Part shown: in pieces, positions 25,714 through 50,297 of the stretch
How positions within the stretch are numbered: position 1 is the first letter of the stretch
How the letters are laid out: the number at the start of each line of letters is the position of its first letter
From: Vagococcus hydrophili
GTDB taxonomy: Bacteria > Bacillota > Bacilli > Lactobacillales > Vagococcaceae
Length of the DNA stretch: 64,000 nucleotides
Direction of reading: 5' to 3'
NCBI RefSeq assembly: GCF_011304195.1
Contig: NZ_CP049887.1
Coordinates: 2,666,001-2,730,000, forward strand
Translations under genes and position numbers: made by a program
Notes under the pieces: generated by a model
Databases searched by the model: none
Told to the model about the DNA's origin: nothing
The model's input: the letters and a program-made list of their open reading frames with translations, nothing else

Positions 25714-25728
25714 ACTTAATTATTACTA

Positions 25729-26092
25729 TGGAGGCGGCGGGAGTCGAACCCGCGTCCAAACACATTGCCACTTAAACTTCTACGCTCATAGTTATACCAT
25801 TTAAAGATTCGCTTTGTTTCATGCCGTATAACAGGCCCTAAACTTCGCTAGTCTGATGAGCTCTTTTAACTTTTACAGACGGAAAAAGTTAATGTATCCC
25901 ACTTAGTTTGAGACCCTTACTCGAGCACATGGGCGATGCCGAGAGGATCTTTGCTAACTGTTTTTAGGCAGCTAAAGCAAAAGTGTTATTTTGATTTTTA
26001 GCAGTTATATTTAACTGTAACGTTTTTACGTAGTCGTAACCTACGAAGCGCAATTCAAGCTCAACTATGCCTGTCGAATCCGTAACGCCCCC
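25729..26092 (-). ncRNA. ssrA: Transfer-messenger RNA (tmRNA)
   Basis: The 364-nt gene begins GGGGGCGTTACGGATTCGAC (26092 downward) and ends with the T-arm GGTTCGACTCCCGCC and acceptor strand CGCCTCC plus A73. The seven acceptor pairs form, including the conserved G3-U70 wobble. CCA is not encoded. The tag frame (25964-26002) reads AKNQNNTFALAA then stop, the usual ALAA degradation tag. tmRNA with SmpB rescues stalled ribosomes and marks the products for proteolysis. Confidence 0.96.
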
Positions 26093-34499: not shown

Positions 34500-34727
34500 A
34501 AAATAGAAAAAAGCACCTTGCAGTCAAGGACGATTTACGCGGTACCACCTTGATTGCAACGATGCTTTAGCATTCATTACCTCTTAAGTACTTTTTAACG
34601 CAAAGTAAGTCGTGATAATTTCTTATCAATTATTGGTAAAGTAGCCAATATTTTTACACAGTCTTTCTTTTCACCTAACAGAAAGCTCTCTAAACTGTGA
34701 ACCAAATTTGTTCTTTACTAGCCTATT
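34500..34727 (-). promoter_or_regulatory. T-box riboswitch of alaS (alanine specifier GCU)
   Basis: The invariant T-box AAGGTGGTACCGCG is at 34538-34551 (minus strand). Stem I is closed by GTAAAG/CTTTAC, contains the AGAGAG motif, and has GCT (34643-34645) in the specifier position just inside that helix. The terminator stem TTGCAATCAAGG ... CCTTGACTGCAA ends in TGCTTTTTT. Uncharged tRNA-Ala would stabilise the antiterminator and switch alaS on. Confidence 0.94.
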
Positions 34728-41986: not shown

Positions 41987-42832
41987 TTATATCTTTTTTA
42001 GATATACATCATAACTACCAAAATTTTTAACAGTTCCGCCTAATGCTTCTATTTCTTGAATCGCCGAATCAATTAGAAAAGAATCTTTAGCCTTAATATC
42101 GAGTAAAAAGAAATAATCCCCTAGTTTTGTTTTTAAAGGACGAGACTCTATTTTGGTTAAATCAATTTCTCGCCAACTGAATGCTGAAAGAATCTTATGT
42201 AAATTACCAGGTTGATTTTGCTTCATGGAAACAGTCATTGTTTGGCGACATAATTCCTTTTTTAATGAACCTTTCTTTAATGCTTCTTTACCTAAAACCC
42301 AAAACCTTGTTTGATTATTAGGAATATCCTGAATTTTTTCTTTCACGATACTCAAACCATACCGCACTGCTGCTTCTTTTGAGGCAATAGCACCCATTTT
42401 TTTATTAGGATTGTCATAAAGCCATTCTGCTGCTTGAGTCGTTGAATCACTCACTTCTTGTTTTGCTTCTGGCAACCATTCACTTAAAAACTCTTGCGTC
42501 TGGGCTAATGCTTGGGGATGAGATCTGACTGTATCAATCCCTCTCCATTCCTCACTGAAATTTGGATGAACCATCAAATTTTGGTTTATCGGAAGAATCA
42601 CTTCTGCTTGAATCAAATGAGTTGAATGATGGAAAATGAAATCTAATGTTTGATTGACCGTTCCTTCAATACTATTTTCAATAGGAACCACTGCATAATC
42701 AATATTGCCTGATTCTAAATTCTTGAGACAAGAGACAATGGTTGGATATGCTGCAGTGGTTTCTTTATCAAAAAGAAAGGTTGTCGCTGAGTAGGTAAAT
42801 GAATCAACTGGACCTAAATAACCAACTTTCAT
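41987..42832 (-). CDS. pheA: Prephenate dehydratase
   Basis: At 281 residues the enzyme converts prephenate to phenylpyruvate. It has the periplasmic-binding-like catalytic domain (VGYLGPVDSFTYSA, VVPIENSIEGTVNQTLD) with NNQTRFWVLG, the conserved Thr-Arg-Phe, and a C-terminal ACT domain (about 200-275, ESRPLKTKLGDYFFLLDI) that binds phenylalanine for feedback inhibition. It is the last gene of the operon, with no fused chorismate mutase. Confidence 0.95.
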   Translation of the reverse strand: MKVGYLGPVDSFTYSATTFLFDKETTAAYPTIVSCLKNLESGNIDYAVVPIENSIEGTVNQTLDFIFHHSTHLIQAEVILPINQNLMVHPNFSEEWRGIDTVRSHPQALAQTQEFLSEWLPEAKQEVSDSTTQAAEWLYDNPNKKMGAIASKEAAVRYGLSIVKEKIQDIPNNQTRFWVLGKEALKKGSLKKELCRQTMTVSMKQNQPGNLHKILSAFSWREIDLTKIESRPLKTKLGDYFFLLDIKAKDSFLIDSAIQEIEALGGTVKNFGSYDVYLKKI

Positions 42833-42837
42833 ATCTA

Positions 42838-43343
42838 TTACCTCCCGACTTTGTTTAAAATTTCTTGAGCAATTTGCGTAATTGATTTGTGCGTCACATC
42901 GATGACATAGTTAGCGGCATCATGGTAAGACTGTTCTCTAATTTTATATAAACTAATAATTTCTGATTCTTTTTTTTGATTAGCTAAGGGCCTTTGATTT
43001 GTTTTATCCCTCGATATTCGCTCAATTAACACATTAATATCACCTTTTAGAAAAAAAACGTTAGATTGACGATTAATTAGTTCTGCACTTTTAGGATAAG
43101 TTAATATACCGCCACCTGTTGCGATGATTTGATTAGACAAGAGATTCTCTTTAAGAACTTCAAATTCTCGTTCTCTAAAACCAGCTTCGCCTTCCTCTTC
43201 AAAAATTTCAGGGATACTTTTCCCTGCAACATCAGCAATTAACTGATCTACTTCTACCAAGTTAATGTTTAACAGTTTACTTAATTCTTTACCCACACTC
43301 GATTTTCCAGAACCCATAAAACCAATTAAGATAATGGATTCCA

Positions 43344-43344
<1 letters not shown>
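42838..43344 (-). CDS. aroK: Shikimate kinase
   Basis: A 168-residue kinase with Walker A GFMGSGKSSVGKEL, the shikimate-binding DQLI and GREREFE (here GFREREFEVL), GGGILTYPKS and the lid RP (QRPLANQ). It phosphorylates shikimate at the 3 position. Its start overlaps the aroA stop (TAATG), so the two are translationally coupled. Confidence 0.95.
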
Positions 43345-45741
<2,397 letters not shown>

Positions 45742-45759
45742 TATCCTATACTCCTTTCT

Positions 45760-46926
45760 TTAGTAATTTAGAGTATAGTCGCGATAACGTTTAACCTCCT
45801 GCTTCATTCTCTCAAATGAATCACTTTCAAATTTATCCAACATGGCTTTAGCAATCTCAATCGTTACCATGGCTTCTGCTACAACACATGCTGCTGGAAC
45901 AGCCGAACTATCTGAACGCTCTACACTCGCTTTGTAAGGTTCTTTTGTGTCAATATTTACCGATTGAAGTGGTTTATATAGCGTTGGAATTGGTTTCATT
46001 ACCCCACGAACAACCACTGGCATCCCATTTGTCATACCGCCTTCAAAGCCACCTAAATTATTGCTTGTTCTGGTATAACCTGTTTCTTTACTCCAGACAA
46101 TTTCATCCATCACTTCACTACCATAAAGTCTAGCAGCTTCAAAACCGACACCAAACTCAACTCCTTTAAAGGCATTGATTGAAACGACAGCTTGAGCAAT
46201 TTTCCCGTCTAATTTTTGATCCCATTGAGTATAGCTACCTAATCCAATTGGCACGCCTCCGACAACGACTTCAACAACGCCACCAATGGTATTCCCTTCT
46301 TTTTTCGTTGCATCAATTTTTTCTTTCATGGCTTCTTCAATTTTAGGATCCACACATCTCACAGCTGAACTTTCAGCTTTATCTCTAATTTCAGCAACAG
46401 TCATTGTTTCTGGTATTTCACCACGAACACCACCGATTTCTAACACATGCCCTGCTACATCAATCTCTAATTCTTTCAACATTTGCTTACAAATAGCTGC
46501 AATAGCCACGCGCATGGTTGTTTCTCTAGCTGATGATCTCTCTAAAACATTTCTTAAATCGTCATGTTCATATTTAATTCCACCAACCAAATCCGCATGT
46601 CCCGGTCTAGGTTTAGCTAAACGACGCATTTTTTTTGCTCGGTCATCGACTGGTTCAATGCCCATAACCGTTTCCCAATTTTTAAAATCATCATTTTTCA
46701 CGATTAAGGTCACAGGTGAACCCAGTGTTTTTCCATGTCTAATTCCCGAAGTGATTTCGACTGTATCTGTTTCAATCAACATGCGACCACCACGTCCGTA
46801 GCCACCTTGTCTTCTTTTTAATTCATGATTAATTTCTTCAACTGAAATACTAATCCCCGCTGGTAGACCATCAATAATCGCTGTTAATTCTGGTCCATGT
46901 GATTCTCCTGCTGTAAAATAACGCAT
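45760..46926 (-). CDS. aroC: Chorismate synthase
   Basis: At 388 residues it shows the three signatures: [36 protein letters not shown] and [31 protein letters not shown], plus [20 protein letters not shown]. The enzyme needs reduced FMN and converts EPSP to chorismate. ATG 46926 lies 6 nt after GGGGGA and gives the family's normal [11 protein letters not shown] start; an ATG two codons earlier is too close to that site. Confidence 0.97.
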
Positions 46927-46941
46927 ACTCATTCCCCCAAT

Positions 46942-48006
46942 TTATTTTTCTAAGTACTGTTTCATTTCTTCTATTCTAATGGTCTCTATTTTAGCTTGTC
47001 CGATTTTTTCTAATAGAATAATCCGAATGTTGGAACCCTGTGTTTTTTTGTCATGAGTTAAGGCTTCATACAATTTTTCTTCTTCCCACTCTTCTAAACT
47101 CGTGGGTAAATTAAATTTAGCCAACATTTCCACTAGCTCAGATAAAATTCCTGCTGGCATTGTTTTTAGTTTCTCTGCCTGTTTGGTCATTTGACACATC
47201 CCTATGGCCACAGCTTCACCGTGAGTCACAACCCCAAAACCTTTTGTTTGTTCCACAGCATGCCCGATTGTATGCCCAAAGTTTAAAATCAGACGATTCC
47301 CTGTATCAAATTCATCTTCTTCTACCACTTTTCGTTTAACCTGACAACAGGCATAAATGATTTCTTCTGAATAATTTAAAACATCTTGATCGTCTTTTAT
47401 TTTTTCTAATAAATGCCATAAATTAATATCTGCAATCGCAGCTGATTTCACCACTTCTGCCATACCTTCTCGGACTCTTCGATCTTCTAAAGTTAATAAA
47501 GTATTAGGGTCAATCAACACCCCATCTGGTTGAGCAAATGTCCCTACTAGATTTTTAGCGACACTCGTGTTAACTGCTGTTTTACCACCAATACTACTAT
47601 CAACTTGCGCCAAAAGTGTTGTTGGTATTTGTAAAAAATGAAGTCCCCTCATATATGTTGATGCTACAAACGCTCCTAAATCGCCTATCACACCACCGCC
47701 AAGAATAATGACACCATCTCTTCTCGTCATTCCTTTTTCTGCTAGATAGTGATAGATTTTTTCAGCCGTCGCTAAATTCTTACTCGTTTCTCCTGGCGGA
47801 ACTGTTATTAAAGAGACATCAAAACCAGCTTCACGGATTGATTTTCCAACTTGTTCTCCGTAAAGTCCTGCCACTGTCTCGTCTGAAATAATCACTATTT
47901 TTTGAGGTTCCCAAAGTGATTTAACCCATGTCCCGACATGAGCTAAACCTCCTTTTTCAATTAATAAATCATACATCTTATTTGGTAATGTCACACTTAA
48001 CTTCAT
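46942..48006 (-). CDS. aroB: 3-dehydroquinate synthase
   Basis: The 354-residue NAD- and zinc-dependent enzyme cyclises DAHP. GGGVIGDLGAFVASTYMRGL, QIPTTLLAQVDSSIGGKTAVN and FGHTIGHAVEQTKGFGVVTHGEAVAIGM carry the NAD site, substrate lysines and zinc-binding His. GAGGTG precedes the ATG. Confidence 0.96.
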   Translation of the reverse strand: MKLSVTLPNKMYDLLIEKGGLAHVGTWVKSLWEPQKIVIISDETVAGLYGEQVGKSIREAGFDVSLITVPPGETSKNLATAEKIYHYLAEKGMTRRDGVIILGGGVIGDLGAFVASTYMRGLHFLQIPTTLLAQVDSSIGGKTAVNTSVAKNLVGTFAQPDGVLIDPNTLLTLEDRRVREGMAEVVKSAAIADINLWHLLEKIKDDQDVLNYSEEIIYACCQVKRKVVEEDEFDTGNRLILNFGHTIGHAVEQTKGFGVVTHGEAVAIGMCQMTKQAEKLKTMPAGILSELVEMLAKFNLPTSLEEWEEEKLYEALTHDKKTQGSNIRIILLEKIGQAKIETIRIEEMKQYLEK

Positions 48007-48017
48007 TTTTTACACCT

Positions 48018-49052
48018 CTAGATTTTTTCTCTAATTTTTTTGATTTCTTTCATGGTATTTTCCATCACATGAATTTGTTCCATCATATTCATGTAACGTT
48101 TTTCGTTTAGAGATTGTTGTCCATCTGACCAAGCGTTGTTTGGATCTGGATGAATCTCAACAATCATACCTGAAGCGCCTGCCGCAATTCCTGCAACAGC
48201 CATTGGTGTCACGTAATCCCAAACACCTACACCGTGACTTGGGTCTACAATAATTGGGAAGTGGCTTAATTTTTGAATGACTGGTACTGCACTTAAATCC
48301 ATTGTATTACGAGTCGCTGTTTCGTAAGTTCTAATCCCACGTTCAACGAAAATAACTTTTTGATTACCTGTTGCTGCAATGTATTCAGCTGCGTTTAACC
48401 ATTCATCAATCGTTCCTGAAATACCACGTTTTAAAGCAACGGGTAGACCTGTTTTACCGACTGCTTGAAGTAATTTGAAGTTTTGCATGTTACGCGCACC
48501 AATTTGTAAAATATCTGTGTATTTAGCCACTAATTCTAAATTCGCTTCGTCCATGACTTCTGTAATGACTTTCATATCGTATTTATCTGCTGCTTGACGA
48601 ATGTATTTTAATCCTTCTTCTTCTAATCCTTGGAAAGCGTATGGAGATGTTCTTGGTTTAAAGGCCCCACCTCTTAAAATAGTTGCACCGCCATTTTTAG
48701 CAATTCTAGCACATTCCATGATTTGTTCTAACCCTTCAATCGAGCAAGGTCCTGCCATTGTGACAAAGTTTTCTTCTCCACCGATTTTTACACCATCCAC
48801 GTCCACCACTGTATCAGTTGGATGAAACTCACGACTCGTTAATTTGTAAGAACTTGTGATTTTAACTGTATCTGAAACTCCGTCATAACTTCTAAAAGGC
48901 ACATCAATCATTTTTTCCACATCTCCAACTAAACCAATAACAGTATGGTCTTTTCCTTCACTTAAATGGACTTCTAATCCTTCTTGCTTAATTCGATCAA
49001 TCACTGCGTTCACTTGTTCTTTGGTTGCTTCTGGTTTCATTATTACGATCAT
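48018..49052 (-). CDS. aroF: 3-deoxy-7-phosphoheptulonate synthase, KDOPS-like (AroF/AroG)
   Basis: The first enzyme of the pathway, 344 residues. The N-terminal ferredoxin-like regulatory domain (about 1-70, MIVIMKPEATKEQVNAVIDR) is the type found in Thermotoga DAHP synthase, where tyrosine and phenylalanine inhibit. The barrel shows MAGPCSIEGLEQ, RGGAFKPRTSPYAFQGLEEEGL, QIGARNMQNF and VDPSHGVG. Feedback by Tyr/Phe is inferred from this architecture. Confidence 0.95.
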   Translation of the reverse strand: MIVIMKPEATKEQVNAVIDRIKQEGLEVHLSEGKDHTVIGLVGDVEKMIDVPFRSYDGVSDTVKITSSYKLTSREFHPTDTVVDVDGVKIGGEENFVTMAGPCSIEGLEQIMECARIAKNGGATILRGGAFKPRTSPYAFQGLEEEGLKYIRQAADKYDMKVITEVMDEANLELVAKYTDILQIGARNMQNFKLLQAVGKTGLPVALKRGISGTIDEWLNAAEYIAATGNQKVIFVERGIRTYETATRNTMDLSAVPVIQKLSHFPIIVDPSHGVGVWDYVTPMAVAGIAAGASGMIVEIHPDPNNAWSDGQQSLNEKRYMNMMEQIHVMENTMKEIKKIREKI

Positions 49053-49940
49053 TTATTTTTCCTCTTTCCTATTAAGTTCCGTTATTAAAAATTCTTCTAT
49101 TTTTTTAGTGGGCATTTTTTTAGTTGTCATTAATTCAAACGCAATTGCCGCTTGATGAATTAACATGCCTAAACCATTGAAACTTACAGCACCTCTAGTT
49201 TTACTTTGTTTTAAAAATTCAGTTTCTAATGGATGATAAATTAAATCTACCACGACTTTTGATTCATCGATTGAACTCAAATCTTCGATAGGTAATTCTT
49301 GATTTTCTCCCATTCCAACTTGTGTTCCATTAACAATAATATCACTTCTTTTTAATATTTTGTTCCGATTTGTTTGGTCATGATAGTCATGAATCTCAAT
49401 GTTAACACCAGTTTGTTTCTCCACGACTTTTAGTTCTGTTCTAACTTCTTCAAATGTTTCATTTTTCCTTTTAAACACATGAATCTCTTGCGCTTTTTCT
49501 ATGGCAGATTGGCATATGACTGCTCTGGCAGCTCCACCTGCACCTAAAATTGAAATAATTTTATTTTCAATCTCAATGTTGCTTTCTCTTAAACTAGCAG
49601 TAAATCCCAAACCATCCGTATTATGACCGATCAAACGATTATTTTTAAGGATGACGGTATTCACAACACCTATTAATTCTGCTGAAGGAGAAACCTCATC
49701 GCAAGCTTGATATGCTTGTTTTTTATAGGGCATAGAGATATTAACACCTAACATATCTAATGCTTTAACAGATTGAATGGCTTGATTAAATGTTGCTTGA
49801 TCCACTTCAAAAGCTAAATAAACAGCATCTGTATGAGTTAATTCATAGGCTTTATTATGAATACTAGGTGACAAGCTATGCTTGATTGGATTGGCGATAA
49901 CACCTGCTAATTTTGTATATCCCGAAATTTTATTTTCCAT
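49053..49940 (-). CDS. aroE: Shikimate dehydrogenase
   Basis: At 295 residues the NADP enzyme reduces 3-dehydroshikimate. GVIANPIKHSLSPSIHNKAY (shikimate site with Ser pairs), VNISMPYKKQAYQACDEV (catalytic Lys), NTDGLGF and ILGAGGAARAV (dinucleotide loop) are clear. It is the first structural gene, preceded by AGGAGGGAG and a 300-nt leader with attenuator features. Confidence 0.95.
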   Translation of the reverse strand: MENKISGYTKLAGVIANPIKHSLSPSIHNKAYELTHTDAVYLAFEVDQATFNQAIQSVKALDMLGVNISMPYKKQAYQACDEVSPSAELIGVVNTVILKNNRLIGHNTDGLGFTASLRESNIEIENKIISILGAGGAARAVICQSAIEKAQEIHVFKRKNETFEEVRTELKVVEKQTGVNIEIHDYHDQTNRNKILKRSDIIVNGTQVGMGENQELPIEDLSSIDESKVVVDLIYHPLETEFLKQSKTRGAVSFNGLGMLIHQAAIAFELMTTKKMPTKKIEEFLITELNRKEEK

Positions 49941-49964: not shown

Positions 49965-50022
49965 AAAAGACGATAACTCGACATAGATTGATTAAACAAA
50001 TCTATAGTAGTTACCGTCTTTT
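49965..50022 (-). terminator. Second hairpin in the aro leader, terminator-like
   Basis: On the minus strand AAAAGACG pairs with CGTCTTTT, with further pairing inside (TAACT/AGTTA and ATAGATT/AATCTAT). It ends in TTTTATTTG about 10 nt before the aroE ribosome site. It may be a second attenuator or a structure that hides translation signals. Confidence 0.55.
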
Positions 50023-50050
50023 GAATAAAATTATTCAACGTATAAGAAAA

Positions 50051-50082
50051 AGCCACTATAGATTTTAATCATCTATGTGGCT
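50051..50082 (-). terminator. Attenuator terminator of the aro operon leader
   Basis: AGCCACATAGAT (50082-50071) pairs with ATCTATAGTGGCT, followed on the minus strand by TTTTCTTATA, giving a typical intrinsic terminator before any structural gene. Its 5' arm can instead pair with ATCTATGAGGGCT (50120-50108), an antiterminator-like alternative. Confidence 0.8.
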
Positions 50083-50117
50083 CTTTAAAGTCAATTTAAA
50101 GATCTCTAGCCCTCATA

Positions 50118-50161
50118 GATACAAACTGTCTTTGTTTGTATCCAAGAATATGGGTACAAAC
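50118..50161 (-). promoter_or_regulatory. Mutually exclusive hairpins of the aro leader
   Basis: Hairpin A pairs GTTTGTACCC (50161-50152) with GGATACAAAC (50143-50134). Hairpin B pairs GATACAAAC (50142-50134) with GTTTGTATC (50126-50118). Both need 50134-50142, so they cannot coexist. B also touches the first three bases of the antiterminator arm (50118-50120). Confidence 0.75.
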
Positions 50162-50162
50162 A

Positions 50163-50228
50163 CTATCTATAATAGCTAAAGTAAAAGTTATTCAGTTGTG
50201 AGGTAAGACGGATATTATTTTTATTCAT
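50163..50228 (-). CDS. Phe/Tyr-rich leader peptide of the aro operon
   Basis: A 21-residue frame reads MNKNNIRLTSQLNNFYFSYY then R and TAG. Five of six consecutive codons near its end specify Phe or Tyr (TTT TAC TTT AGC TAT TAT). The ATG at 50228 follows GGAG with 8-nt spacing, and a strong promoter lies 40 nt upstream. It resembles the leader peptides PheL and TrpL of classical attenuation: a ribosome slowed for lack of charged tRNA-Phe or tRNA-Tyr would leave the first arm of hairpin A free. Confidence 0.8.
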   Translation of the reverse strand: MNKNNIRLTSQLNNFYFSYYR

Positions 50229-50268
50229 GTCATTCACTCCAACGTTTCTTTATTTAATAATTGTTCAC

Positions 50269-50297
50269 AGTATACCCATATTTTTTTTCCTTGTCAA
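50269..50297 (-). promoter_or_regulatory. Promoter of the aro operon
   Basis: TTGACA (50297-50292), exactly 17 nt, then TATACT (50274-50269) on the minus strand. This is the best consensus match near the operon. Start would be near 50262, some 34 nt before the leader peptide ATG. Confidence 0.85.

Follow-up and report, generated by a model that had tools for sequence, protein, structure and literature searches.

The locus and its leader peptide

Eight genes on the minus strand of the 64,000-nucleotide stretch of Vagococcus hydrophili DNA analysed here (the window) form a run in the order aroE, DAHP synthase, aroB, aroC, tyrA, aroA, aroK and pheA, with aroK identified only below the cut-offs of its models. 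None of the eight is a trp gene, and the tyrA and pheA products lead to the same two amino acids that are coded in a leader peptide upstream of aroE. A sequence-only reading had placed a TTGACA-17-TATACT promoter and a 21-codon peptide with a ribosome site here, and both are present (Table 1). The ATG at 50228 is preceded by TTGGAGTG, and the short reading frame contains FYFSYY, with five Phe/Tyr codons in a run of six (50186–50169), ahead of a stop codon at 50165–50163. This density is unique to the leader peptide among the 256 small ORFs of the window (10–45 amino acids with a ribosome-site-like sequence; 83 on the plus and 173 on the minus strand), and was reached by 3 of 2,713 ORFs from ten shuffled windows. 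A promoter-like pair with at least 9 of 12 matches, taken as the best of several, lies within 190 nt upstream of the core in 131/145 relatives.

Table 1 Features of the leader and the operon, with folding energies and z-scores against shuffled sequences
Feature	Position	Strand	Support
Promoter, TTGACA, 17-nt spacer, TATACT	50297–50292 and 50274–50269	minus	sequence
Leader peptide ORF, MNKNNIRLTSQLNNFYFSYYR and stop	50163–50228	minus	sequence; homologous peptides in relatives
Region 1, last part of the peptide-coding strand, partner of region 2	50164–50181	minus	minimum-energy fold, compensatory changes, cross-pairing test
Hairpin A	50134–50161	minus	−9.6 kcal/mol, z −5.0
Hairpin B, mutually exclusive with A and overlapping region 2	50118–50142	minus	−8.6 kcal/mol, z −5.5
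Region 2, partner of region 1 or region 3	50104–50121	minus	fold, covariation, cross-pairing
Antiterminator (2:3), inner CUUUAAA/UUUAAAG helix	50071–50120	minus	−14.3 kcal/mol, z −2.8
Terminator T1 (3:4), then TTTTTCTT	50051–50082	minus	−14.4 kcal/mol, z −5.7
Region 4 (3' arm of T1), possible partner of region 5 (12 bp, −14.2 kcal/mol)	50053–50064	minus	
Region 5, within the 5' arm of T2	49999–50010	minus	cross-pairing test
Second terminator T2, hairpin with T-tract	49965–50022	minus	−21.6 kcal/mol, z −6.8
aroE, first gene of the run	49053–49940	minus	NCBIfam TIGR00507, above cut-off
DAHP synthase, aroB, aroC, tyrA, aroA, aroK, pheA	41987–49052	minus	NCBIfam

Other RNA elements of the window are an FMN riboswitch (480–612) and a tmRNA (25726–26092), both minus-strand Rfam matches, and a T-box-like match at 34523–34724 of the minus strand (72.3 bits, cut-off 93), where an alanyl-tRNA synthetase-like ORF begins. 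Rfam at gathering threshold gives no match at the leader locus. A T-box (RF00230) was considered for the leader and rejected, none of its 21 matches in the genome falling there.

Alternative folds of the leader

The energy of each element was compared with that of shuffled sequences. Hairpins A and B, the antiterminator and the terminator of the sequence-only reading all withstand this comparison, the antiterminator fold being equalled by 4 of 200 shuffles. The whole stretch from peptide start to terminator folds with a z-score of −4.8. Every part of the earlier list is thus present; what had been overlooked is the pairing of region 1 with region 2, which is the one chosen by the minimum-energy fold, and the second terminator T2.

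Distribution among relatives

We compared the leaders upstream of aroE in the genus. All 14 genomes searched contain an aroE match, and 13 of them carry a homologous leader upstream. One genus relative (G006) has lost the leader before aroE, where a different-looking leader is found in its place (L016), and has a weak leader copy elsewhere (L047).

A covariance model of the core, built from 11 sequences, gave a single match in the own genome. It matched 23/29 genomes of the family, 238/395 sampled genomes of the order (58/80 genera) and 35/398 genomes of the class, five of those outside the order. A peptide-based switch had earlier been thought unusual at such an operon; these counts show the leader to be common in the order, where the peptide, the hairpins and the placement ahead of aromatic genes are all retained. 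Up to five copies per genome were found in the order sample, and an E. gallinarum plasmid carries one upstream of an ABC transporter (L024). The 172 leader records were reduced to 149 by dropping 22 near-duplicates and one short record. All frames were examined for these 149, with the peptides of L041, L098, L099 and L157 read by eye.

Six short leaders (L128, L130, L131, L170, L171 and L173) are without hairpins A and B, and their peptide frame passes region 2 before the stop. This layout is closer to the classic four-segment trp arrangement.

Control codons and downstream genes

The typical peptide ends in QLNN-F/Y-Y-F-S-Y-F/Y-R. At least four F/Y/W in seven codons are found in 138/149 leaders (all frames), two have three Phe only (L093 and L098), and nine carry a branched-chain (Ile/Leu/Val) run, such as IIISIIIR, TIISIIR, NLLISVIR or LVIISIVIR. 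Downstream genes were assigned by Pfam on the first long ORF after each of the 149 leaders. The main classes are PF04392 transporter proteins (80), aroE (34) and DAHP synthase (9), followed by family 3 solute-binding proteins (7), class IV aminotransferases (3), class I/II aminotransferases (2) and singles. Enzyme singles behind non-branched-chain leaders are chorismate synthase, dehydroquinate synthase, transketolase and a D-lactate-dehydrogenase-like enzyme; transporter singles are a DASS/citrate-type transporter, a transporter ATPase (L047) and a BPD_transp_2 permease (L104), and the ORF behind L130 is without a Pfam match. One PF04392 protein tested with NCBIfam was nearest to TrpX, below cut-off.

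The codon run follows the downstream pathway. Behind the nine branched-chain leaders lie livJ-like genes (4), ilvE (3), an ilvA-like gene (1) and acetolactate synthase (1), families that are found behind none of the other 140, while aromatic runs stand before mainly aromatic genes and transporters. One case counts against this matching: the aromatic codons of L104 precede a permease from a Pfam family with 'branched-chain' in its name, to which the transporter permease of the E. gallinarum plasmid copy also belongs. The leaders are related by descent, so the 9/9 agreement does not represent nine independent events; offsetting this kinship, four branched-chain gene families are involved and one genome (G219) has both kinds of leader. 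An Ile pattern scan of named genomes gave eight matches, five of which are Ile leaders (Fundicoccus ignavus, Dolosicoccus paucivorans, Falseniella ignava, Ruoffia tabacinasalis and R. halotolerans); the other three, in proteobacteria, were judged to be chance. In a genome outside the order, a YYYFGWF leader (L202) lies upstream of a transketolase gene, whose product feeds erythrose 4-phosphate into the pathway.

Ribosome-mediated attenuation predicts that codon identity follows the downstream pathway, and its observation therefore supports this reading. Codon swapping is the strongest evidence for an attenuator, and we consider it very likely that the element is a ribosome-mediated transcription attenuator sensing Phe and Tyr. 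One feature of the peptide counts against the model. The Gln-Leu-Asn before the aromatic run (50190–50198 in the window) is kept despite synonymous change, with Leu in 68/113 anchored leaders written with four codons and Asn in 79/113 with two, and attenuation does not require such retention at the amino-acid level. It favours a nascent-peptide arrest leader, in which the ribosome would sense the peptide and not scarce tRNA. Nevertheless QLN is absent from many leaders, the run switches to Ile/Leu/Val or Trp with the genes, and Ser and Arg give way to Gly at places where the RNA pairing has altered as well, which leaves peptide arrest very improbable.

Compensatory changes and cross-pairing

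Covariation was assessed on 101 cores aligned with MAFFT independently of the structure. In helices 1:2 and A taken together, 73 cells are changed on both sides, compared to 22.3 in shuffles and 12–44 when the pairing was slid, and compensatory changes are present in all nine outer 1:2 pairs; one specified pair fits few sequences, being unpaired in 84/101. Hairpin A is paired in 99.9% of cells. Hairpin B is paired in 94.1% of cells with little covariation, its double-sided changes being matched or exceeded in 117/500 shuffles.

We also compared the mean duplex energy of two regions within a leader to that between leaders. Detection of the first hairpin initially lost 33 of the 149 leaders, of which a relaxed version recovered 29, so that 145 entered the test (L047, L084, L100 and L151 were left out); the T2 assigned to L172 is doubtful. 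The 1:2 duplex averages −18.6 for own and −14.6 for cross pairs, with own better in 140/145. Corresponding values are −14.4 and −12.5 for 2:3 (122/145), and −13.1 and −8.5 for 4:5 (134/145), where the lowest mean of 2,000 permutations is −9.26 against an observed −13.14. Among control pairings own was better in 51 (2:5), 68 (6:1), 82 (6:3) and 98 (4:1) of 145, so that 6:3 and 4:1 are not flat, a point against the model. With own no better than cross (51/145), the idea that regions 2 and 5 pair directly was discarded. Folds, covariation and cross-pairing therefore agree on a terminator and an antiterminator that are mutually exclusive.

The 4:5 pairing bears on the role of T2. At least five T in seven follow the first hairpin in 41/145 leaders and such a U-run is missing from 104/145, where the first hairpin was picked without, and T2 with, a required T-tract. 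Since the first hairpin lacks a U-run in these 104 leaders, a relay from T1 to T2 is likely. Within attenuation, T2 could instead be a mere backup terminator and 4:5 functionless: T1 of the window copy has its own U-run, and fewer than half of the leaders favour 4:5 at equilibrium (see below). Against this stand the 104 first hairpins without five T in seven and the 4:5 complementarity, retained through sequence change in 134/145 leaders compared to 51–98/145 for the controls. We regard a backup role as unlikely, and retain the relay.

Ribosome position and the predicted fold

Leaders were folded with a masked ribosome, whose footprint was assumed to span 17 nt upstream and 13 nt downstream of the first A-site base; these folds are at equilibrium and carry no timing information. 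The analysis used the first 116 leaders and is summarised for the 81 ending in R and for 21 extended ones, in which the stop lies three codons later, with 14 other-ended leaders excluded. Among the 81, the 2:3 pairing is predicted to comprise 9.0–9.6 bp when the A site is at codons −3 to −7 relative to the stop, and 8.9 bp at −8. For the 21 extended leaders this peak shifts to −6 to −10 (8.9–9.8 bp). The peak positions coincide with the aromatic codons and their intervening Ser, with a weaker effect at the last aromatic codon (6.2 and 6.5 bp). A ribosome at the stop lowers 2:3 to 3.8 bp (81 leaders) and 4.2 bp (21 leaders), and with no ribosome it amounts to 2.5 and 2.1 bp, respectively.

The 4:5 pairing is above half in 33–39 of the 81 leaders over the ON range of A-site positions, compared to 20–25 at most other positions and 29 at −8; in the extended leaders the corresponding numbers are 4–8 and 1–4 of 21. 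The equilibrium effect of ribosome position on 4:5 thus appears modest. In the window copy, 4:5 is predicted to replace 3:4 only if codon 18 or 19 occupies the A site. The 2:3 pairing of this copy is also favoured with the ribosome at upstream codons 3, 6–11, 13 and 14, which counts against the model, since these positions are not needed by it. The stall logic put forward previously, in which aromatic codons favour the antiterminator and the stop codon less so, therefore holds as a computed average over 102 leaders, but is not clean for the window copy taken alone.

Relation to described RNA elements

In enteric bacteria, the attenuators of trp, his and pheA combine a leader peptide containing control codons with exclusive hairpins, and transcription ends there if translation of the peptide runs to completion or does not take place; the his leader also links several hairpins in a chain. 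In mechanism, the leader described here resembles them in its control-codon peptide, its exclusive hairpins and its proposed termination when the peptide is completed or untranslated. It differs in an extra hairpin pair leading to a second terminator, and in that a single leader family serves several amino-acid specificities.

A permissive Rfam search matched RF02863 (Enterococcus sRNA 2410) to the window leader at 54.2–54.5 bits, with a gathering cut-off of 61, while 4 of 12 scanned relatives exceed the cut-off (L024 89.5, L055 80.5, L018 66.6 and L116 63.5). By these scores the window leader is homologous to RF02863 without being a formal member. The passages of the source describing this family report an RNA of 195 nt in E. 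faecium that a Northern blot confirmed and that appeared as two transcripts; there it is called a small RNA, with a peptide unmentioned in those passages (PMC5593968), and the Rfam model starts inside the peptide. Taken at face value, this RNA would act in trans, the operon lying downstream by chance. Yet the 149 leaders read precede matching pathway genes in the same orientation, and a terminated leader would resemble such an RNA, so that we give a purely trans-acting RNA hardly any probability; a second role in trans for the leader RNA may exist.

Two S. agalactiae elements (gbs2033 and gbs1262), of 195 and 270 nt, have been described before paralogous ABC transporters. The relevant passages report short and long transcripts from one start, conservation in Lactobacillales and the presence of one element before the E. 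faecium aro operon, and the elements were proposed in 2015 to be riboswitches (PMC4448216). From genes and lengths they would be of RF02863 and RF04312 type, and they appear to be the same as the leader family here. In seven leaders of the genus g11, presumably Streptococcus, with gbs2033 presumably carrying this element, the predicted start lies 253–283 nt from T2 and 186–207 nt from the first hairpin; the published 270 nt agrees with the distance to T2. A riboswitch that binds a metabolite, either an aromatic amino acid or a precursor, would fit the premature termination seen in RNA-seq (PMC4448216) and the strong sequence conservation (of 98 positions in the first sequence, 57 do not vary among the first 11 cores). 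These conserved letters are, in fact, largely in pairing strands and codons, the codon runs vary with the downstream pathway, and a fixed unpaired core was not seen by eye in the 101-sequence alignment. A riboswitch is for these reasons highly improbable.

The trpB motif (RF04312) likewise has a terminator and an antiterminator, with TrpX-like transporters or trpB downstream. Its published description calls it a strong riboswitch candidate, the authors leaving room for a classic attenuator (PMC11109978). The window scores 40 bits with this model, short of its gathering cut-off of 59. Matches occur in 10/40 genomes of g11 (3 over cut-off) and in 160/295 genomes of the order (52 over cut-off). 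Some of the weaker ones are the Phe/Tyr leaders themselves, including that of the own genome, so that the Trp branch is smaller than this count. We read 39 trpB-motif loci of related genomes (L203–L241), picking for each the nearby small ORF richest in Trp. A Trp-containing small ORF directly precedes the motif in 38/39 (none was found for L211), and W..W occurs in 35/39, as in QLNSWQNWRR; the three single-W cases are weak because the Trp-richest ORF was chosen. The trpB motif is thus probably a Trp attenuator. It shares QLN, the AGATA stop region and the TATCTATG arm with the Phe/Tyr leaders, which suggests that the two form one family.

Ribosome-mediated attenuation has been reported in Firmicutes before, for other leaders, namely branched-chain leaders of S. 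aureus and L. monocytogenes and His leaders of bacilli (PMC6123439, PMC2965389, as stated in the passages concerned). The uORFC-13-1 motif of Acholeplasma resembles the present leader, having a Phe-coding leader before aroF and a terminator; its entry gives 24 representatives in Acholeplasma and environmental sequences (PMC8632094). The kind of mechanism is an established one, and the element itself has already been recorded under other names. The selected papers covered by our literature searches, mostly as passages, contain no description of the element as a leader-peptide attenuator, and likewise none of its codon-swapped relatives or the relay.

Proposed mechanism and implications

The proposed mechanism builds on computed parts, conservation, compensatory changes, codon–gene matching and energetics. 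RNA polymerase would transcribe the leader while a ribosome translates the peptide. When charged tRNA-Phe or tRNA-Tyr is scarce, the ribosome would halt on the Phe/Tyr codons and mask region 1; hairpin A could then form and region 2, left free, would pair with region 3. T1 could not form because region 2 pairs with region 3, and the freed region 4 would pair with region 5, blocking T2 too, so that the operon is read. Once the peptide is completed, a ribosome at the stop codon would mask the first arm of A and allow B to form, and B would take the start of region 2, whereupon both terminators form. In the absence of a ribosome, region 1 would capture region 2, with termination likewise. The peptide-coding strand accordingly competes for the antiterminator strand, giving an OFF state without translation. 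For this organism we infer that the peptide is translated, that ribosomes stall on it, that transcription ends at both sites and that folding proceeds in this order. The attenuator proposed by the sequence-only reading is in essence supported, with three corrections: region 1 is a further competitor, there are two terminators, probably acting in relay, and the system is widespread in its order.

With somewhat less assurance than the relay itself, we favour a broader reading in which a single portable attenuator, programmable by its codons (Phe/Tyr, Trp or branched-chain), serves the order with an exclusive pairing chain to a distal terminator, sRNA 2410 and the trpB motif being branches of it. 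In other bacteria such genes are often preceded by T-boxes or different leaders. Here, ribosome position would be relayed via 1:2, 2:3, 3:4, 4:5 and 5:6, and the first hairpin in the chain would often be unable to terminate.

If this is true, one testable mechanism replaces the riboswitch and small-RNA readings of widespread RNA elements. It would yield substrate predictions for PF04392 transporters, namely Phe/Tyr where the leader codes Phe/Tyr and Trp for the paralogues behind the trpB motif. The naturally occurring codon swaps and hairpin losses in the leader family would provide a series of variants for tests of attenuation and, if the relay is real, the family would show how a ribosome can influence a terminator more than 150 nt distant.
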